From Algoriphagus antarcticus (lineage in GTDB: Bacteria > Bacteroidota > Bacteroidia > Cytophagales > Cyclobacteriaceae): a stretch of DNA of 64,000 bases. Positions within the stretch are counted from its first letter, which is position 1. Each line of letters starts with the position of its first letter. Shown piece after piece: positions 21,887 through 30,549 of this stretch. Both the position numbers and the translations under genes were made by a program. The notes beneath the pieces are model-generated. The model was not told where the DNA came from and made no database searches. It was given only the letters and a program-made list of their open reading frames with translations. The DNA lies in assembly GCF_002150685.1 (NCBI RefSeq), contig NZ_MSSW01000007.1, positions 62,001-126,000 of the forward strand, given 5' to 3'.

Positions 21887-22699
21887 CTAGTTCAAATTTT
21901 TGTAATAATAATCTGTTGCCTTACGAACAGAACCCTCACTGATCAAGAGTCCCTTGGCAGTCGCCTCATCGAGCCCAGTAGCTTCCATGATCATATTGAT
22001 CCCTCGCTGCATCAGCTTCGCATTAGAAAGCTGCATATCCACCATCTTATTGCCTTTCACCTTTCCAAGCTTGATCATTACTGTTGTGGAGATCATGTTG
22101 AGAATAAGTTTCTGAGCTGTACCAGATTTCATACGTGTACTTCCCGTGATAAACTCTGGACCTACCACTGCCTCTATGGGATGATCCACTTCTTTAGAAA
22201 GTGGGGAATCTGGATTACAGGTGATGCTTCCTGTTAAGAGCCCTTTTTCACGAGCCGCTTTCACGCCACCGATCACATAAGGAGTTGTCCCTGATGCAGC
22301 AATTCCAATCACGGTGTCATTTGCATTGAACCCATATTCCAAAATATCATTCCACGCCTGCTCAGGATCGTCTTCAGCATTTTCCACGGCTTTCCTGATC
22401 GCTGTATCCCCTCCTGCAATTAGTCCCAAAACCATATCGAACGGTACACCATATGTCGGCGGACATTCAGACGCATCCAGCACGCCAAGTCTTCCACTGG
22501 TGCCAGCTCCGATGTAAATCAACCTTCCGCCTTTTTGCATTCTAAGTACAATTTCCTCTACCAATCCACTGATATTAGGAATCACCTTCTCTACGGCTAA
22601 CGGCACTTTTTTATCCTCGGTATTGATATTATGAAGCAAATCCAACAAATCCATTTGCTCCAAATTATCATAGTGGGAGGTACTTTCGGTTACTTTCAT
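21887..22699 (-). CDS. murQ: N-acetylmuramic acid 6-phosphate etherase MurQ
   Basis: A 270-residue SIS-domain lyase that cleaves the lactyl ether of MurNAc-6-phosphate to give GlcNAc-6-phosphate, a step of peptidoglycan recycling. The SIS core GAGTSGRLGVLDASECPPTYG carries E78. The second catalytic glutamate is E109 (ENAEDDPEQAW), with the same 31-residue spacing as E83/E114 of E. coli. The sugar kinase gene upstream on the same strand supports the recycling role. A 67-bp repeat element ends 24 nt before the start codon. Confidence 0.94.
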   Translation of the reverse strand: MKVTESTSHYDNLEQMDLLDLLHNINTEDKKVPLAVEKVIPNISGLVEEIVLRMQKGGRLIYIGAGTSGRLGVLDASECPPTYGVPFDMVLGLIAGGDTAIRKAVENAEDDPEQAWNDILEYGFNANDTVIGIAASGTTPYVIGGVKAAREKGLLTGSITCNPDSPLSKEVDHPIEAVVGPEFITGSTRMKSGTAQKLILNMISTTVMIKLGKVKGNKMVDMQLSNAKLMQRGINMIMEATGLDEATAKGLLISEGSVRKATDYYYKNLN

Positions 22700-22722
22700 C
22701 TGTTTTTAATTTTTTTTAATTG

Positions 22723-22789
22723 GTCATATGGAATCTCGCATTACGGATAATCATCCCTCCGAGCGTTGCCTTAGACATGCTCGATTTCA
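22723..22789 (-). repeat. 67-bp interspersed element, copy 1 (murQ leader)
   Basis: On the minus strand it starts TGAAATCGAGCATG and ends ATGCGAGATTCCATATGAC. The two ends are imperfect inverted repeats of about 12 bp. The first three bases TGA are the stop codon of the upstream kinase gene, and the element ends 24 nt before the murQ ATG. Same length and ends as copies at 23877 and 30464; the middle is variable. Confidence 0.8.
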
Positions 22790-23629
22790 CAGGGTCTCTT
22801 GGTGGTAAAGTGTCAAACCTGCTATTGGGCTTTCAATTATTAGATTTACGTTAATATGCACATCTGAGGCAGCTTTACGAAGAATATCACTGTTATAATA
22901 AGCAATAGATCCTACAAAATTCACCGGCTTCTCCCTATACTCTTTATACTTCATCACATGCTGCTTGAAGAATTCCTGAAAGGAATTGTAGTAGAGCAGG
23001 TAGCAATAAGGATTGGATTTGTGCTCTGTGATAAATCTACAAAAACTAGCCATGTATCTATTGGGAAACGGCTTTTGATACACATGCTCCTGAATTAATA
23101 TATTGGTCAAATGAAAATTGTTAGTGAGCTCCCTTTTAATTTCTGAAGGCATTTCATCATTGATAAAATCTTTCAAAAGCTTCCTGCCAACATAGCCTCC
23201 GCCGCCTTCATCTCCAAAAATATAACCTGGAGCAGGGCGAGTATCCACGATCTGCTTTCCATCGTAATCACAGCTATTCGATCCTGTCCCCAAAATACAT
23301 GCTATTCCAGGCTGGTGACCGCAGGTTGACTTTGCGGCCGCAGTGAGGTCGTGATCTATAGTTATTTTAGCTTTTGGAAAAACAGTTTTCAATGCTGACG
23401 AAACCTCATTCTTTCGATCAGGTGTAGAGCATCCTGCGCCATAGAAAAATATCTCTTCTATTTCACTCTCCAGATTTACCAGGAATTCGCTCTGCATTTG
23501 AATCGCCATTTCTTCCGACGTTTGATAATAGGGGTTAAACCCAATACCTCGGTGCTGACTAATTCTTCGATCTGAATGAATTACTCTCCAGTCCGTTTTG
23601 CTGGAACCACTATCTGCGATTAATATCAT
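22787..23629 (-). CDS. BadF/BadG-type sugar kinase (N-acetylglucosamine or MurNAc kinase)
   Basis: A 280-residue ASKHA-fold kinase of the BadF/BadG/BcrA family. The phosphate-1 motif is at the N-terminus (LIADSGSSKTDWRV). ILGTGSNSCDYDG and the GDEGGGGYVGRKLL loop are the nucleotide-binding and sugar-kinase signatures. In Bacteroidota these kinases phosphorylate amino sugars from peptidoglycan turnover, which fits the murQ gene 87 nt downstream. Exact substrate (GlcNAc or MurNAc) is inference. Its ATG directly abuts the stop of the upstream b5-like gene. Confidence 0.88.
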   Translation of the reverse strand: MILIADSGSSKTDWRVIHSDRRISQHRGIGFNPYYQTSEEMAIQMQSEFLVNLESEIEEIFFYGAGCSTPDRKNEVSSALKTVFPKAKITIDHDLTAAAKSTCGHQPGIACILGTGSNSCDYDGKQIVDTRPAPGYIFGDEGGGGYVGRKLLKDFINDEMPSEIKRELTNNFHLTNILIQEHVYQKPFPNRYMASFCRFITEHKSNPYCYLLYYNSFQEFFKQHVMKYKEYREKPVNFVGSIAYYNSDILRKAASDVHINVNLIIESPIAGLTLYHQETL

Positions 23630-23857
23630 CTATGCTAATTGCCCAATGGCTTGAAATTTCTCAAATACCTTTTCTGTGTGAGGAGCATCTGGCAGCTCTT
23701 CTGTAAGATCCTGACCAGCCCAATGTTCGTAATGCATACCCCTTTTCCATAGCCTAGAACCGCTCACATCATAAATTACTCCTTGAAAAGCTACCCATAT
23801 TTCGGGTTTATCCTGGCCATTTCGAAGTGCTAGCTGTTGCTTTGTATAGATTTTCAT
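23630..23857 (-). CDS. Small cytochrome-b5-like heme/steroid-binding domain protein
   Basis: A 75-residue single-domain protein with the prokaryotic cytochrome b5-like pattern YTKQQLALRNG, VAFQGVIYDVSGSRLWKRG, and then MHYEHWAGQDLTEEL, with histidines as candidate heme ligands. There is no signal peptide or membrane helix. ATG 23857 (MKIYTKQQ) is chosen; a frame extends upstream to 23974 but that part runs through a repeat element and the previous gene. It is translationally contiguous with the sugar kinase. Partner and ligand unknown. Confidence 0.82.
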   Translation of the reverse strand: MKIYTKQQLALRNGQDKPEIWVAFQGVIYDVSGSRLWKRGMHYEHWAGQDLTEELPDAPHTEKVFEKFQAIGQLA

Positions 23858-23876
23858 GAGTTTATTTTTTTTTACG

Positions 23877-23943
23877 GCCACATGGAATCTCGCATTTACA
23901 ATGATCATCCCTCCGCGTGACTTTATGGACATGCGCGATTTCA
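23877..23943 (-). repeat. 67-bp interspersed element, copy 2 (leader of the b5-like gene)
   Basis: On the minus strand it starts TGAAATCGCGCATGTCC and ends ATGCGAGATTCCATGTGGC. It begins directly after the stop codon (TGA, 23946-23944) of the arginase-fold gene and ends 20 nt before the b5-like ATG. It shares the CGGAGGGATGAT core word with copy 1 except for small changes. Confidence 0.8.
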
Positions 23944-25095
23944 TCAAAGCAACTTGATTTGAGCATTGATCCAACGCTCAGGAATCTCCCCTTTTTGAGC
24001 CATCTGATAGTCAGCATAGCTACATGGCACGGTACTCACTCGGTCAAATTTCTCAGTTTCATTATGCGGAATTTCCATCCACCATTTCCCACTTCTTTTG
24101 CTTTTATAGAAAACCAGCATGTTTGGCTTTGCATCCAGTGAAACTGTGTATTTGGTATAGTCACTGCTTTTGAAAGAGAGGCTGTCCTTTCGGGAATAAA
24201 ATCCCTCGAGAAAATACCAAATCATCACCGAAACCACTTTCGCAGTCTTATTTACTGTATCGTCAAAGTATGGCTCATAGCCATAGATCCCGATAGAACT
24301 CAGCTTCTCATTGGTACCGGCAAACCAGCAAATCTGGCAAGCTTCTTCTGCTGTCAATCCAAAAGGCTCAGCATTTACCGCCCCAGGAGCATCCGCAGAC
24401 TGAATAGCGCATAAGTCAAAGCTCAGCAAATCCGCATTTCGTATTAACGGCTCCACTTCCTTGAACTCACTTCTCAATTCGCCCAAACGCACATGCTCAA
24501 AATATAGCTTTTCCACCACGTTGATCAAAGAAGGGTCAACCAGAAAACTCTGATATGCTAAATGTGCTGAGGAGAAGAGAAAATTAGGCTGATGAAGAAT
24601 GATTTCCTGTGTATGCTGATCAGCAAGAGGGCCGTCCTCTTCCATATCCAACTTGGCATCTACTGTCAGCAGACTGACCAGCTTTTTCATTTTCTGGTAG
24701 GACAAATATTGGCCATAGTCCAGATCGTGCGATCCTCCAAAATAGATCGGTAGAATCTGCTGCTTCATCAGATACTCTCCCACTTCCTGCATTCTTTGGT
24801 AGGTATCACTCAGCTTCTCTCCGGAAATCATATCTCCCAAATCTGCTACTCTATAAGGCCCAAAACCTTTTTTGAGATCGTAGAGCTTCTCGCGAATTTC
24901 GCTACTTCCTCTATCTGCACTTTCCACTTTAGCCAGACCCCGGTTTTCTTTGATTCCGACAAGAGCGATTTGCACTCCTTTAAGATCGGGAAATTCCTCT
25001 CCGAAAAAGTGAATTTGCTTGAAGAATGAATTGAGTGGGTATTTTTTCTGCCAAAGGTACTCGGCTACAGGATCAAAGTAGGATTGGATATTCAT
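23944..25095 (-). CDS. Arginase/formimidoylglutamase-fold protein with altered metal site
   Basis: A 383-residue ureohydrolase-fold protein. The fold motifs are recognisable: FGGSHDLDYG (H123), TVDAKLDMEE (D146, D150) and LLSFDLCAI (D227). Two of the six manganese ligands expected from arginase are changed: the DAHxD histidine is K148 and the second aspartate of SFDxD is C229. A binuclear Mn site is therefore unlikely, and activity as arginase or formimidoylglutamase is doubtful. ATG 25095 (MNIQSYFDPV) is preferred to 25140. It lies 84 nt downstream of nqrF on the same strand, after a terminator. Confidence 0.8.
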   Translation of the reverse strand: MNIQSYFDPVAEYLWQKKYPLNSFFKQIHFFGEEFPDLKGVQIALVGIKENRGLAKVESADRGSSEIREKLYDLKKGFGPYRVADLGDMISGEKLSDTYQRMQEVGEYLMKQQILPIYFGGSHDLDYGQYLSYQKMKKLVSLLTVDAKLDMEEDGPLADQHTQEIILHQPNFLFSSAHLAYQSFLVDPSLINVVEKLYFEHVRLGELRSEFKEVEPLIRNADLLSFDLCAIQSADAPGAVNAEPFGLTAEEACQICWFAGTNEKLSSIGIYGYEPYFDDTVNKTAKVVSVMIWYFLEGFYSRKDSLSFKSSDYTKYTVSLDAKPNMLVFYKSKRSGKWWMEIPHNETEKFDRVSTVPCSYADYQMAQKGEIPERWINAQIKLL

Positions 25096-25142
25096 AAGGG
25101 ATGGTAGTCTTAGGTAAAAATAATCAAAATAGCCTCTCAAAT

Positions 25143-25170
25143 AAAAAATCCCGCTTGAGCGGGATCTTTT
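25143..25170 (-). terminator. Terminator of nqrF
   Basis: On the minus strand ATCCCGC / GCGGGAT with a tetraloop is followed by six T. It sits between nqrF and the arginase-fold gene and overlaps the region just upstream of the latter's start. Confidence 0.85.
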
Positions 25171-25179
25171 GTTTATTTA

Positions 25180-26484
25180 TTAACCTCCGAAGTCATCAAA
25201 TCGGATATTTTCCTCAGGAATTCCCATGTCATCCAGCAACTTCAGAACTGCTGAATTCATCAAAGGTGGTCCACATAGGTAGTATTCTACTTCGTCTGGC
25301 TCAGGATGATTTTTCAAATAATTATCATAAAGCACTTGGTGAATGAATCCAACGTATCCGTCACCTTCTTTATCCTCTTCTGATTTCTTGATCTTCCAAT
25401 TATCTTCTGGAAGAGGCTCGGACAAACCAATATTAAACTGGAAGTTCGGGAAGTCTTTTTCAATATCTCGGAATTGCGGAACATAGAAAAGCTCCTTCTT
25501 AGATCTACCGCCATACCAGTAAGATACTTTTCTACCGGTCTTCTCTGTATGGAAAAGGTGGAAAATCTGTGCTCTCAATGGAGCCATACCTGCGCCACCA
25601 CCGATGTAAACCATCTCACGCTGTGTAGGATTAATATGGAATTCACCGTAAGGGCCAGAAATAGTCACCTTATCACCAGGAACTCTACCGAACACATACG
25701 AAGAACAAACCCCTGGATTCACATCCATCCATTTGTTATTTGCTCTATCCCAAGGTGGTGTGGCGATACGAATTGTAAGCATTACGATGTTACCTTCTGC
25801 GGGGTGATTAGCCATCGAGTAAGCTCTGAACAGCTCCTCATCATTCTTCATGGTCAAGTCCCAAAGACCGAATTTATCCCAATCACTTTGATATACGTCA
25901 TCAGGGTGACCCAGATCTGGATGGGGAGTGATGTCTATGCCTTTGAAGTTCACCGTAATAATGGGAACATCAATTTGAATGTATCCACCAGCCTCGAAGT
26001 CAAGAGTTTCACCTTCAGGAAGTTTTACTTTGAATTCTTTGATGAAAGTAGACACGTTGTAGTTGGAGATAACCTCACACTCCCACTTCTTAATACCGAA
26101 GATCTCTTCCGGAACCCGGATCTTCATGTCATTTTTCACTTTCACCTGACATGCTAGACGTACGTTACTTTGCTGCTCTGCTCTGCTTAAGTGGCCAACT
26201 TCCGTAGGAAGGACTTCTCCTCCACCTTCTTCGACCACGCATTTACACATTGCACAAGTACCGCCACCACCGCAAGCGGATGGAAGAAAGATTTTTTGGC
26301 CTCCTAGTGTAGAAAGCAGGGTAGTTCCAGCTGCTGTCACAATTGGAGAACTCTCGTCACCATTGATGATAATGTTGACATCTCCCGAGTTGACCAGCTT
26401 AGACTGGGCAAAAAGGAGAATAAATACCAGTAGCAATATGATAACTGTAAAAGCTACAATGGAAGTAATAATTACTGAACCCAT
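25180..26484 (-). CDS. nqrF: Na+-translocating NADH:quinone reductase subunit F
   Basis: A 434-residue protein with an N-terminal membrane helix (about residues 4-26), a 2Fe-2S ferredoxin domain with C71, C77, C80 and C112, an FAD domain (RAYS at 220-223) and an NADH domain ([10 protein letters not shown] and [10 protein letters not shown]). NqrF takes electrons from NADH into the sodium-pumping Nqr complex. Length and the membrane anchor favour NqrF over soluble oxygenase reductases. nqrA-E are not next to it: accD is upstream and an arginase-fold gene downstream. A TATATTTG box (26539-26532) lies 47 nt before the ATG. Confidence 0.93.
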
Positions 26485-26531
26485 GAAATTTTGGTTTAAT
26501 TTTTCTTATGGATTGGCCCAATACGGGAGCA

Positions 26532-26539
26532 CAAATATA
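26532..26539 (-). promoter_or_regulatory. -7 promoter element upstream of nqrF
   Basis: TATATTTG on the minus strand, matching TAnnTTTG, 47 nt before the nqrF ATG. No good -33 partner was found. Confidence 0.4.
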
Positions 26540-26616
26540 TTTATTAATCACTAAAAGAGACTAGATCACGACCCAAATTTGAGCCGAATATTCAAATCCT
26601 TTTAGTAGTAACTCGA

Positions 26617-27459
26617 TTAATTATTCAAAAGTTTGAGTAAGGTGGTCAATCTGCCTTTTAATTGACGACGATCGACGATAAAATCTAGGAATCCATGCTC
26701 GAGTACAAACTCTGAACTTTGAAAACCCTTAGGTAAGTCCTTACCTATCGTCTCACGAATCACTCTAGGTCCAGCGAAACCAATCAATGCTTCTGGCTCT
26801 GCAATATTGAAATCACCCAGCATCGCGTAAGAAGCAGTCACTCCACCTGTAGTAGGATCTGTGAGCATCGAGATGTAAGGGACACCAGCTTGATCCAGCA
26901 AAGCAAGCTTAGCAGAAGTCTTTGCCATTTGCATCAAAGAAAATCCAGCTTCCATCATACGAGCACCACCTGATTTAGAGATCATCAGGAATGGGATTTT
27001 ATTTTTCAGAGAATGGTCAATAGCTCTGGCGATTTTCTCACCCACTACAGAACCCATAGATCCACCGATAAAATTAAAGTCCATACAGGCTATCACGATG
27101 TCCAATCCGTTCATTTTACCTACGGCCGATCTCACAGCGTCATTCAACTCTGTTTTCTGGATTGTAGCTTCTATTCGGGAAACATAAGGTTTGGTATCCG
27201 TGAATTTCAGAGGATCTGCCGATGTCATCTTGGCATCAAGCTCTTTGAATTTGTTGTTGTCAAAAAGAATTTCGAAATATTCCTTTGAACCGATTTTCAC
27301 ATGAAAATCATCGTCCGGGCATACGTAAGCATTATTCTTGAGCTCTCTTGTATGGATGATATTTCCATTTGGGGTCTTAAACCAAAGGCCATCAGGTGCA
27401 TCTTTCTTCTCAGCTGTAGATGTTTTGATGCCTTTGTCAGTTCTTTTAAACCAAGCCAT
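26617..27459 (-). CDS. accD: Acetyl-CoA carboxylase carboxyltransferase subunit beta (zinc-ribbon-less)
   Basis: A 280-residue carboxyltransferase beta subunit that transfers the carboxyl group from biotin to acetyl-CoA in fatty acid synthesis. The crotonase core is intact ([63 protein letters not shown]). The N-terminal four-cysteine zinc ribbon is degenerate: the first CxxC is TPNG (residues 29-32) and the second is CPDD (47-50), leaving one cysteine. I recall the same loss in other Bacteroidota AccD sequences, so it is probably a lineage trait. Confidence 0.95.
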
Positions 27460-27498
27460 ATTGAGTGTTTAGGTTGTCTTTTGACGAGTCAAAGGTTA

Positions 27499-27506
27499 CA
27501 AATTTA
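27499..27506 (-). promoter_or_regulatory. -7 promoter element upstream of accD
   Basis: TAAATTTG on the minus strand, 39 nt before the accD ATG. It fits TAnnTTTG; no -33 TTTG at the usual spacing. Confidence 0.4.
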
Positions 27507-27685
27507 GTCGTTAAATCCCGTAAATAAAACCCCCTTGGAAATAGGACGGGAATTCAATTACGTAAAGGAATTCGACACTTTATCGAAAATCTCTTTTTCA
27601 GTGATTATTATTTACCTTATTTTGATATCAATCAATTAGAAAAGATTTTTCACCGGAGAATCTATCAATATCCAAATAACTATTC

Positions 27686-29320
27686 ATGAACTTAGCCGTT
27701 CTACTCCTCATTTCAGCTGTAATTTTATTTTTAGCCTACACCATTTACGGCAAATTTGTGTATAAAAAATTTGGCTTAAACGATAAAAATCCAGCTCCAT
27801 CTCATACGCACAGAGATGGTATAGATTATGAGCCAAGTAAGCCCATAGTGGTTTTGGGACATCATTTCGCTTCAATTGCCGGAGCTGGGCCGATTGTGGG
27901 GCCGATCATTGCAGTAACTTTTGGATGGATTCCCGCGGTCATTTGGATTTTAGTAGGAGGGATATTCTTTGGAGCTGTACATGATTTGGGAAGTATGGCT
28001 ACTTCGCTCAAAACTGATGGGAAATCTATAGGTGTGATCATCCGAAATCAAATCGGAATGAAAGGAAAGCAGCTCTTTGTTATCTTCAGTTTTTCTACGC
28101 TAATCCTTGTTATTGGTGTATTTGCAGATATTATTGCCAAGACTTTTGTCACAAATCCGGGCGTGGGCTCAGCATCCATTCTATTTATTTTGCTAGCGAT
28201 TGTTTTCGGAATAGTGAATAAATTAATAGGTGATAAAAAGGCTGCATTCATTTTCATCACCATAATTGGTGTGATATTGATGTACTTCTTTGTGTATTTG
28301 GGTATGAAAATTCCTTTTGTGCTTGATTATAATATCTGGGTTTTGGCACTTTTGGCATACGCATTCATTGCATCAGTGACTCCAGTAGCTACGCTGCTTC
28401 AGCCGAGAGATTACCTCAATAGTTTTTTGCTATATGGATTAATTATAGCTGCGGTATTAGGCGTTTTCATTGCTAATCCTGAAATTCAGATGAGCAATGA
28501 AATTCATGTCTCGGATGAAAATCTTGGATATATTTTCCCTGTACTGTTTGTCACTATTGCCTGCGGAGCCATCAGCGGATTTCACTCCTTAGTTGCTTCA
28601 GGCACTACTTCCAAGCAATTGAATAAGGAATCTGATGCTAAATTGGTAGGTTTTGGAGGAATGTTAATTGAGTCATTTCTAGCAATTATTTCTGTAGGAG
28701 CAGTGGTTATTTTATCCCGATCTGAATATATTGAACGTCTTTCGGGAGAGGGCCCAGTTGCACTTTTCTCCACAGGATTGGGAGGTATGATTGCTACGTT
28801 GGGAATTTCAGAAGAGTTTGCTGTGGGCTTTGTAGCACTCACCGTTTCAGCTTTCGCACTTACGACATTAGACACATGCACTCGATTGGCCAGGTTCACC
28901 TTACAAGAATACTTTGAAGATGTTCCTCAAGCTGCTGGTCAGTATCTCGCTAAAAACAGATATGTTTCCACAGGAATTGTGGTTGTCTTTTCTATACTCC
29001 TGTTGCTTTCGGGAGAATTCACCACGCTCTGGCCAATTTTTGGCTCAGCAAATCAATTGCTCGCAGCTCTTGCGCTTTTGACCATTGCAGTTTGGCTCAT
29101 CAAGAAAAACATCAATGCGCTTTTCGTGACGATTCCCATGTTCTTCATGTTCACGGTAACGCTTTCATCTTTAGGCCTTTTTGCCTGGAAAAACTTCAAA
29201 GACGAAGTTTATGTCCTTGCCATCATAGCAGCACTGCTTTTTATATTAGCGATAGCCTTAATGGTTTTGGCCACCAAAAGCTTGAAAAAAGAAGTCAAAG
29301 AACCCGCAAAGGTTCTTTGA
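27686..29320 (+). CDS. Carbon starvation protein CstA family transporter
   Basis: A 544-residue polytopic membrane protein with about 15 hydrophobic segments. The CstA signature is near the N-terminus: HRDGIDYEPSKPIVVLGHHF, then ASIAGAGPIVGP and GAVHDLGSMATSLK. The C-terminal part contains ALTTLDTCTRLARFTLQEY. CstA/BtsT proteins take up pyruvate or peptides; this shorter CstA form is common in Bacteroidota. The last codons lie in a 13-bp hairpin (29292-29323) shared with the convergent pseudogene. Confidence 0.92.
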   Translation: MNLAVLLLISAVILFLAYTIYGKFVYKKFGLNDKNPAPSHTHRDGIDYEPSKPIVVLGHHFASIAGAGPIVGPIIAVTFGWIPAVIWILVGGIFFGAVHDLGSMATSLKTDGKSIGVIIRNQIGMKGKQLFVIFSFSTLILVIGVFADIIAKTFVTNPGVGSASILFILLAIVFGIVNKLIGDKKAAFIFITIIGVILMYFFVYLGMKIPFVLDYNIWVLALLAYAFIASVTPVATLLQPRDYLNSFLLYGLIIAAVLGVFIANPEIQMSNEIHVSDENLGYIFPVLFVTIACGAISGFHSLVASGTTSKQLNKESDAKLVGFGGMLIESFLAIISVGAVVILSRSEYIERLSGEGPVALFSTGLGGMIATLGISEEFAVGFVALTVSAFALTTLDTCTRLARFTLQEYFEDVPQAAGQYLAKNRYVSTGIVVVFSILLLLSGEFTTLWPIFGSANQLLAALALLTIAVWLIKKNINALFVTIPMFFMFTVTLSSLGLFAWKNFKDEVYVLAIIAALLFILAIALMVLATKSLKKEVKEPAKVL

Positions 29321-29323
29321 CTT
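29292..29323. terminator. Hairpin terminator overlapping the 3' end of cstA
   Basis: A perfect 13-bp stem AAGTCAAAGAACC / GGTTCTTTGACTT has a 6-nt loop and includes the cstA stop codon. On the minus strand it is followed by TTCTTTTTTC, so it can end transcription of the convergent gene; on the plus strand the tail is only weakly T-rich. Confidence 0.75.
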
Positions 29324-29331
29324 TCTGACAA

Positions 29332-30440
29332 CTATAATGAGTTAAATACTTCCTGTACTTTTTTAGGGATTCTCACAGCAACTGTGAAATTGATCAGATA
29401 ATCCGCAAAAGCCGCATCTCCTTGAACCACATTGCCGGGAGTGGATTTTTCGATGTCTGTTACACTTTGTGTTCTATTTCTGAATAAAGCAAGCGGCACA
29501 TTCAAAGTCCCTGTCACAAACCCCCCGCATATATCTCACTCCTGGCTCCAAAGAGATAATATAACCAAGTCTTCTAAACCTTCGCTACCCGAGAAAGCAT
29601 TGTGCACTGGAATCCCTTCAATCCTTACGCCGAGGGAGGCTCCCAATCCATGTACTTTTTCAAATGATTTGAATACACCAGTTCTCACTGCGAATTGATC
29701 TGGCACACTCATAATGGCTTCATTTGGTCGGCTTCTATTGGTGGGAGTTCCATTTGCTTCCTTCGGATTAAACATATAAAATCCATCGTAATACCAGAAG
29801 AATGCACTACCCCTGTTCCATAGACCTTGAAAATCAATGATCAAGCCTGTGCCTCCATCTCCCAATTGAATAGATTGATCGACGGTTTTGTCTTGCTCGA
29901 TCCCTCAGCTCCTTGATTATAGAAAGTGCTTTTGGCAGCGTAATCTCCAGTAGGAAATTTGATCCCTAGACCAATCGCTGTATTTCCTTTTTTGGCTTTT
30001 TCTCCAGAAAGCAACCAGTAGCCAACTCCTATGCGCATATCCCCTAATCCTTGGGAATAGGAAGTATGCCGCTCCGTGCGACCATGTTCGTACAGCGAAC
30101 TTCTTTCGTTGTATTGCAAAGGCAGAGAGAGAATACCGTAAAATCGCTCAGTAAAAGCATAACTGACATTGAAATCCAGACCATGCTGTTTATTGATCAC
30201 CTCAGTGTGATCGGTCAAGCGCTCGTGTTCTTGTTCAGTACCTCGAAAATGTCTGAATGACTTAAAATAGCGATAATTGGCACTGACGTTCCATTCACCT
30301 TCATTGAGCATATTTCCTTGGCCAACAGCATTGCCAAGCCCTGAAAACTGGCGTATAGCAACACAGCCTTGAGGATAAGCATGAAAATATGCTAAAGTCA
30401 ATACGACAGTAGCAAACAGTATTTTGGTATATTTTTTCAT
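29332..30440 (-). pseudogene. Outer-membrane beta-barrel protein gene broken by frameshifts
   Basis: The gene starts at ATG 30440 with a signal peptide (MKKYTKILFATVVLTLAYFH, cleavage near AYPQG) and codes for barrel-like strands down to about 29885. There the frame jumps, and homologous-looking coding continues as VDQSIQLGDGGTGLIIDF in another frame to about 29547. A third frame carries EPGVRYMRG. Then, after a run of six G, it returns to VTGTLNVPLALFRNRTQSV and the natural stop at 29332. At least three indels are needed. The intact protein would be about 365 residues. Neighbouring genes are intact, so decay is more likely than poor sequence. Confidence 0.75.
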
Positions 30441-30463
30441 GTGTTTATAATTTGATTGTATAA

Positions 30464-30530
30464 GTCACATGGAATCTCGCATGGTCAATATTCCTTCTTC
30501 TATGTGCCTCTCGCATCATGCTCGATTTCA
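30464..30530 (-). repeat. 67-bp interspersed element, copy 3 (leader of the pseudogene)
   Basis: On the minus strand it starts TGAAATCGAGCATG and ends ATGCGAGATTCCATGTGAC, with the same total length as the two other copies. The centre differs and contains an extra ATGCGAGAGG word. It ends 24 nt before the ATG of the frameshifted gene and lies 20 nt after the stop of the haloperoxidase gene. Confidence 0.8.
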
Positions 30531-30549
30531 TGAGATACTTATCTAATAA

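Follow-up and report, generated by a model that had tools for sequence, protein, structure and literature searches.

Genomic context of the three copies

The DNA analysed here (the window) is a stretch of 64,000 nucleotides of Algoriphagus antarcticus (contig NZ_MSSW01000007.1, positions 62,001 to 126,000), in which three related insertions directly precede three minus-strand genes, namely murQ, a gene for a cytochrome-b5-like protein and a barrel-like gene. An earlier note had described them, from the sequence alone, as 67-bp elements with conserved ends and a variable middle, and all three copies are present at the positions and with the ends that it gave. The conserved part is real, but the full unit measures 87-91 bp rather than 67 bp because the downstream leader moves with it. 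The features are (positions in the window; labels starting with G and L are our own handles for genomes and loci):

22700..22790, minus strand: whole mobile unit of copy 1 (91 bp), flanked by the end of a kinase-like gene and by murQ
23858..23944, minus strand: whole mobile unit of copy 2 (87 bp), flanked by an arginase-family gene (stop codon TGA 23946-23944) and by the cytochrome-b5-like gene (start 23857)
30441..30531, minus strand: whole mobile unit of copy 3 (91 bp), flanked by a PAP2-family gene and by the barrel-like gene (start 30440)
22723..22789, minus strand: copy 1, structured part (outer arms and middle), the 67-bp element of the earlier note
23877..23943, minus strand: copy 2, structured part, the 67-bp element of the earlier note
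30464..30530, minus strand: copy 3, structured part, the 67-bp element of the earlier note
30445..30531, minus strand: leader frame of copy 3 (28 codons), open from the displaced start codon to the stop codon TAA 30447-30445
30438..30469, minus strand: copy 3, right-end helix P4, in which CATGTG (30469-30464) pairs with CACATG (30443-30438)

In copy 1 the left end is GTGA, which gives the upstream kinase-like gene its stop codon (TGA 22789-22787), and the right ATGA is the start of murQ at 22699; the kinase-like gene was named by eye and matched no Pfam family. The length of copy 2 is divisible by three, so that the displaced start codon is in frame with the cytochrome-b5-like gene. Copy 3 keeps the native 5' leader of its gene (TTATTAGATAAGTATCTC) upstream of the left ATGA, and the first stop base of its leader frame lies at -7 relative to the ATG of the barrel-like gene.

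Empty sites and the insertion target

Clean empty sites were found in relatives for all three copies, exactly at the start codon. For copy 1, the upstream stop codon overlaps the murQ start in 14 of 30 murQ loci (e.g. ..TATGAAAGTAAC..; six of the 14 begin with the slightly longer ATGAANAA..), and A. antarcticus has 91 bp added exactly at this point of overlap; the murQ start was not located in three of the 30 loci. Other units were seen at the murQ start in G024 (two), G014 (two) and G031 (one, degraded). Copy 2 is absent from all 27 other genomes shown; the stop and start codons of the two genes lie together in 26 of them, and G010 has a different insert at the same ATGA. For copy 3, the relative G028 has the homologous leader TTATTAGATAAGAAACTT directly before ATGAAAAAATATACC, and the occupied site has the same leader followed by ATGA, the unit and ATGAAAAAATATACC. 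Among 16 other loci of this gene (15 genomes; several of the loci are non-syntenic upstream) the element was found only in G014, in decayed form. Close relatives lack copies 1 and 3.

Empty sites contain ATGA once and occupied sites contain it twice; this may mean that 4 bp were duplicated, or that one end of the element has the sequence of the target. The displaced original leader stays upstream together with its ATGA, and the element supplies the second ATGA. Since at genes starting with ATGAAT or ATGAGA the two sides have only ATGA in common (ATGAA by accident), the target is ATGA. The idea that intergenic junctions are targeted was thus not borne out: it is this tetranucleotide, mostly as a start codon, that receives the element. 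The family is a mobile one that inserts precisely at start codons.

The layout of the unit is ATGA, then AAT, a stem, the variable middle, ATTCCATNTG, an A/T-rich leader of about 25 nt and CAN, followed by the ATGA of the gene. Aligned copies read ATGAAATCGAGCATG, the middle, ATGCGAGATTCCATNTG, about 25 nt of A/T-rich leader, CAN and the ATGAAA of the gene. Two units of Lunatibacter salilacus, both accompanied by their own leaders, occur in one order at L126 and in the opposite order at L139, and in G031 near-identical units with near-identical leaders precede different genes. The leader is therefore part of the mobile unit, which gives 87 bp for copy 2 and 91 bp for copies 1 and 3. The constant length suggested earlier proved only approximate, as the distance from the left ATG to the end of the 3' arm is 66 in 127 of 225 copies, 63 in 29, 67 in 24 and between 47 and 99 in the rest.

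Most copies precede a gene. Of 206 distinct copies with enough flanking sequence, 113 are followed by an open reading frame (ORF) of at least 60 codons, 61 by another unit and 24 by a shorter frame, and eight have no ATG 15-36 nt downstream. An ORF of this length follows 113 of the 137 non-tandem copies that have a right ATG. For ATGAAA sites away from elements the proportion is 334 of 1164; these sites were counted in 115 stretches listed by a contig scan for the element, which gave at least that many. By a crude ORF model, 809 of these 1164 sites lie inside ORFs, 121 are the first ATG of an ORF of at least 80 codons and 234 are neither. The bias towards start codons seems stronger than would follow from avoiding the disruption of genes alone, and may stem from selection, from targeting or from both.

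Family size and distribution

Both exact ends occur at the spacing of the element 11 times in the A. antarcticus genome and the reversed pattern not at all, far beyond chance. The 17-nt 3' end gave 99 matches with at most three mismatches (24 exact; reversed control five), part of which are antisense matches to the 5' end of the element. BLAST with copy 1 gave 57 places in the genome at E <=10, and a relaxed right-end pattern gave 53 (control 0), of which 52 were genuine by inspection. The three window copies thus belong to a mobile element family and are not chance spacers.

The exact right (3') arm was present in 24 of 36 Algoriphagus genomes (0-64 matches per genome) and in none of 22 genomes from other genera of the order. 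Among the matches listed, the element occurred in Algoriphagus, Cyclobacterium, Lunatibacter, Lunatimonas, Pararhodonellum, Pleomorphovibrio and Aquiflexum (all Cyclobacteriaceae in the NCBI taxonomy), in Anditalea (placed by the same taxonomy in the Cytophagaceae) and in two records assigned only to the Cytophagales and the Cyclobacteriaceae. Of 390 genomes of the order searched with the relaxed pattern, all 24 of the genus, 41 of the 50 that belong to other genera of the family and 111 of the 316 others had matches; outside the genus there are mostly one to three per genome, and as the reversed control gives one or two in many genomes, much of this may be chance. Four places in G089 and G116, which belong to another family of the order, were fetched on account of right ends that appeared genuine, and their anatomy is that of the element.

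No match to one 98-nt unit was found in collections of sequenced phages and plasmids, and viral contigs contained no exact match for the CGAG type. The relaxed right end gave seven matches in viral contigs, six of which are chance by inspection. The seventh, in L441 (match 2280-2320), looks genuine: an element of the superfamily with a new complementary stem, sitting on the ATGA before a gene that resembles N-acetylmuramoyl-L-alanine amidase (named by eye). Such a contig is a possible vehicle for the element.

Paired regions and covariation

Pair counts on column pairs supported three helices, which we call P1, the P2 hairpin and P4. The imperfect 12-bp inverted repeat formed by the ends is real, and its inner part covaries between subfamilies. 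In the common type, the outer arms pair via AAAUC...GAUU and GCAUG...CAUGC around opposed GA/AG (P1). Other subfamilies (18 of the 30 rows compared are elements by inspection) keep AAAT...ATTCC and have TGCCC/GGGCA, TACCC/GGGTA or CGATTAAAAT/ATTTTAATCG as inner stem. Three of the four copies fetched from the other family of the order have new complementary stems again (GGCTTG/CAAGCC, CCCTGAT/ATCAGGG and a self-complementary GGCC).

P4 joins the variable base of CATNTG to the CAN before the start codon. This pair is Watson-Crick in 191 of 225 copies, against 74 expected, and G-U in six more (12 of 237 copies had no right ATGA and were dropped); when the same CATNTG base was paired with the left flank as a control, 49 of 171 copies matched, with 49.8 expected. 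A recount on all loci gave 231 Watson-Crick pairs in 278 (92 expected) plus eight G-U. In a mutual-information scan of 112 units the P4 pair was the strongest signal, and a pair of the P2 hairpin (15-24) came third, after an adjacent pair. P1 and P4 thus covary. The P4 partner in copy 3 (CACATG) includes the start codon of the barrel-like gene, and that in copy 2 is CTCATG.

In predicted RNA folds of 80 units sampled from 163, the probability of P1 exceeded 0.5 in 55 and that of P4 did so in 64. The start codon was mostly paired (mean unpaired probability 0.13), and the energy z-score was modest (mean -1.1). Copy 3 is predicted to form P1 and P4, and copy 2 P1 and part of P4.

The leader frame and a proposed translational coupling

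Read from the displaced start codon, 185 of 225 copies have no stop within the structured part; with a shuffled middle this would be expected of about half. The first stop lies at -7 (57 of 203 copies) or +1 (61 of 203) of the new ATG, together 118 of 203. Among 121 copies of one length, 14 have a stop in the leader frame, against 30.5 when changes were permuted (none of 300 permutations was as low), and stops are not depleted in the second potentially open frame (44, against 46.0 by column resampling and 43.6 by permutation).

Bacteroidota naturally lack Shine-Dalgarno sequences (PMC6847099), and according to the same paper initiation in Flavobacterium johnsoniae takes place without Shine-Dalgarno pairing; an A at -3 and at -6 favours it, and structure tunes it. 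In the element, position -3 is C and a helix covers the new start, which would fit coupled ribosomes better than fresh initiation. Ribosomes would start at the displaced original start codon, translate a leader frame of about 30 codons, open up the helix that covers the new start codon and terminate at this codon or shortly before it (at the TGA inside ATGA or the TAA at -7). Expression would thereby stay coupled to the gene's own initiation site and the insertion would be nearly neutral, which in turn would account for the accumulation of copies at start codons and at the stop/start overlaps of operons. With a displaced start, a second start and a new leader, the genes on both sides remain intact. 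Translational coupling as the cause of harmlessness is in our opinion a good, though hypothetical, model.

The element upstream of sucC

As the loci from the scans for the element were chosen by their intact arms, which biases any comparison of arm conservation between species, we relied on a series collected by protein, that of sucC (the gene was named by eye), in 35 genomes and A. aquimarinus. The element was found at sucC in nine of the 35 genomes (G034, G010, G014, G016, G023, G021, G009, G017 and G028) and in A. aquimarinus. The elements of the G016/G023 pair belong to another subfamily. G009, G017, G021, G028 and A. aquimarinus have a hairpin and leader type in common that occurred only at sucC among the collected loci (at most three mismatches), and G014 has a more distant match to it. 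At L100, L374 and their relatives upstream of sucC we observed what looks like one long-lived copy, with different middles and similar arms and leader in several species. A copy of this type in front of a housekeeping gene is a candidate for domestication.

G000 and G019 have a clean sucC site (..GGATGAATATTC and ..GAATGAATATTC, respectively). In a murQ tree, from which three genomes were skipped, both lie inside the supported clade G017-G000-G028-G021-G019 (100/98), with G021 and G019 together (97/96). We favour precise losses in these two genomes; the alternatives are that the gene was replaced or that this rare unit was gained repeatedly. A simple history is disfavoured: on the murQ tree the presence of the element at sucC requires seven changes and is not clustered (500 of 500 shuffles were as low), on the sucC tree it requires four (19 of 500 shuffles as low), and the element-free G001 is placed differently by the two trees.

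Interpretation and alternative explanations

We consider it highly probable that the three copies represent a non-autonomous mobile family of 87-92 bp, found mainly in Cyclobacteriaceae, that inserts at ATGA (usually ATGAAA), mostly at the start codons of genes. Besides the coupling described above, this reading includes movement by single strands, as in IS200/IS605 transposition: a single internal stretch, TTCCAT(NTG), would serve as a guide, since it is complementary to the ATGAAA of the target and of the two boundaries apart from an A-C mismatch. Pairing of the guide with the base before ATG in tandem targets did not fit in the few arrays read by eye. More tentatively, and with the balance leaning slightly against it, this could be a new class of selfish element with the translation start as its niche: an internal guide would recognise ATGA(AA), a start codon would be restored at each end, and the leader frame and start helix would let host initiation drive translation through the insert. 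Each new end would be a fresh ATGA target, which would explain the arrays. The mobiliser may be an undescribed single-strand or RNA-dependent system.

Several observations weigh against the main reading. Some insertions do not lie at starts (L256, L105). The variable base pair of P4 is broken (A opposite G) in 13 of 24 G031 units and in window copy 1 (CATATG/CAGATG), whose best predicted fold contains neither P1 nor P4 and whose leader frame stops 19 nt before murQ. At sucC in G009 and G017 the right arm is broken by another palindrome, so that the arms are not essential there. The first stop of the leader frame lies elsewhere than at -7 or +1 in 85 of 203 copies, the deficit of stops is borderline in a stricter column-resampled test (14 against 20.8 expected; 12 of 300 as low), the substitution bias between codon positions is weak (48/66/81 for lengths 66 and 63 pooled, 4/1/5 for length 67), and since the copies are related none of these counts is independent. 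As to a mobiliser, the draft genome G014, with 41 exact matches to the 3' arm (its 30 listed element copies are mostly diverged), has no match to Y1 transposase (PF01797), and G031 (draft, 100% complete by the table) has only one Y1 frame with a stop and one fragment.

The earlier note had proposed either a structured leader RNA or an element like a miniature inverted-repeat transposable element (MITE) or a repetitive extragenic palindromic (REP) sequence. Both mobility (empty sites of all three copies) and base-pairing (covariation) stood; a classical MITE and a conserved gene-specific leader RNA at these three genes did not. The former was ruled out because the outer ends are not inverted repeats of each other: no outer inverted repeats were found, the left end reading AATCGAG.. 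and the right end ..TTATAAACAN, with the 3' arm about 25 nt inside. A cis-regulatory leader RNA (riboswitch-like or protein-binding) that has spread to many genes of a host regulon, with P1 and P4 as a translational switch hiding the start codon, would agree with the covariation of P4 and its burial of the start codon in predicted folds, and the sucC copy, common to at least five species and with a leader found only there among the collected loci, suggests that some copies are long-lived. However, copies 1-3 are missing at the same genes in close relatives, the downstream genes appear functionally unrelated (murQ, the b5-like gene and the barrel-like gene; argG and sucC by eye), conservation within the element is lowest in the middle, in which a ligand pocket would be expected, the right arm is broken in the two sucC copies, and Rfam has no match. 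We regard this explanation as improbable and, because the copies are private insertions, we rejected a riboswitch regulon as the main reading. Chance similarity or convergent spacers can practically be dismissed in view of the exact copies against zero controls and the empty sites; a lack of further copies, of compensatory changes and of a consistent position, which the earlier note would have taken as signs of chance, was contradicted on every point.

Somewhat less improbable than a leader RNA, although we still think it unlikely, is an ends-only derivative of IS200/IS605 (a palindrome-associated element, PATE) moved by a Y1 transposase, the REP-associated tyrosine transposases (RAYTs) included. 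The lack of terminal inverted repeats (TIRs), the fixed tetranucleotide target, the guide-like complementarity at the boundaries, the hairpins and the apparent precise loss at sucC in G000 and G019 all suit such an element, and Y1 matches occur in 34 of 36 genomes of the genus. Against it stand G014 and also G031, where units that differ by one base lie at different loci (five of 24 units read; the 20 regions were chosen by eye from 40 listed places and are mostly of the common type) despite the broken Y1 frame. Moreover, only one of 30 Y1 loci fetched (up to +/-1.5 kb) had an element within 1.5 kb, a nearby insertion at or beyond the end of the gene, and in none of them did element ends flank the Y1 gene as a REP pair would. 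No autonomous version, in which the same ends would enclose a gene, turned up in the collected loci; no whole-genome search was made for it. Least likely of the mobile alternatives is insertion of the transcribed unit by RNA-target pairing and reverse transcription. The elaborate covarying structure and the sense orientation relative to the gene would be in line with this, as would an enrichment at starts that seems to be above disruption avoidance, with 121 starts and 234 other sites among the ATGAAA outside ORFs in the crude model mentioned above. Yet sense orientation follows automatically from an asymmetric target, and insertions away from starts exist.

If the preferred reading of a start-codon-inserting mobile family is true, it shows how a mobile element can live in dense operons without breaking genes, with insertion at the start codon, a second start and coupled translation across the insert as its route to harmlessness. 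The family rewrites the 5' untranslated region of many Algoriphagus genes, it can mislead the annotation of start sites (copy 2 adds 29 in-frame codons) and it offers a natural test of termination-reinitiation in Bacteroidota.

Comparison with known systems

PATEs of the IS200/IS605 group are small, lack TIRs, contain hairpins and have a fixed short target at the insertion point. The element described here likewise inserts beside a fixed short target that is also present at its other end, as seen from empty and occupied sites. It is also small, lacks TIRs, has hairpins and contains a guide-like internal complement, similar to the internal guide complementary to the target in the portion of PMC7290912 on these elements. 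It differs from them in that a single internal guide would face both boundaries, in carrying a start-codon leader and an open frame, in the absent or broken Y1 transposase of two host genomes and in having no ends in common with a full-length tnpA element in the 30 Y1 loci fetched. The element thus resembles an IS200/IS605 ends-only element in its target rule, and membership is not supported.

RAYT-associated REPs are short palindromes in high copy number, often in composite arrays, and according to the section of PMC2817692 that deals with them they mostly have GTAG/GTGG-type heads and are about 20-40 nt long. The present unit has a different head, is about 91 nt long, sits on start codons and is absent from 29 of the 30 fetched Y1 loci. 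With Correia/NEMIS, ERIC, RUP and RPE sequences it has in common that these are non-autonomous, shorter than 200 bp and form structured transcripts, some with open frames; unlike the present element, they mostly have TIRs and TA termini, and the pages of PMC2229807 on their open frames describe in-frame fusions with other genes rather than frames that sit at a start codon. The stop/start overlap also recalls overlapping ATGA gene pairs and their termination-reinitiation, as treated in a part of PMC6728339, but here a mobile element would create the overlap between leader frame and gene. The structured 5' leader near the start codon is reminiscent of riboswitch and leader families in Rfam; its position, however, is not conserved at the three window genes (the sucC copy excepted). 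No Rfam match at the gathering threshold was found in the window, and the two matches around copy 1 are at chance level (15.5 and 12.7 bits against cut-offs of 44 and 38). In our literature search, which mostly excluded subscription papers and from which we do not claim absence from print, we came across no paper that appears to describe such an element.

Related inserts and other observations

A second palindromic repeat (CCCGA...TCGGGACAGG type) was repeatedly found nested in the element (L041, L014, L104, L149, L402, L404 and others). This CCCGA...TCGGGACAGG repeat either follows GATTC in the 3' arm or interrupts the latter half of the middle, so that two small repeat families occupy the same place. 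The ATGA occupied at L256 (G009) is not a start codon; this copy is antisense to a Y1 transposase gene and lies at the end of that gene or beyond it.

Upstream of murQ in G021 and G019 (L219 and L221) a larger insert occupies the same start codon; it has several inverted repeats by eye, ends near GGATTC(C).. and is possibly a bigger relative of the element. Dissimilar inserts with ATGA on both sides were seen upstream of murQ in G009 (L222) and of the b5-like gene in G010 (L235), one of which ends in AATTATAGACAAATGAAA, like the present family. Insertion at start codons may thus be a wider habit.

The barrel-like gene behind copy 3 (29536-30440 in the window) has a frame of 199 amino acids, against about 370-408 in most relatives, and is interrupted downstream.

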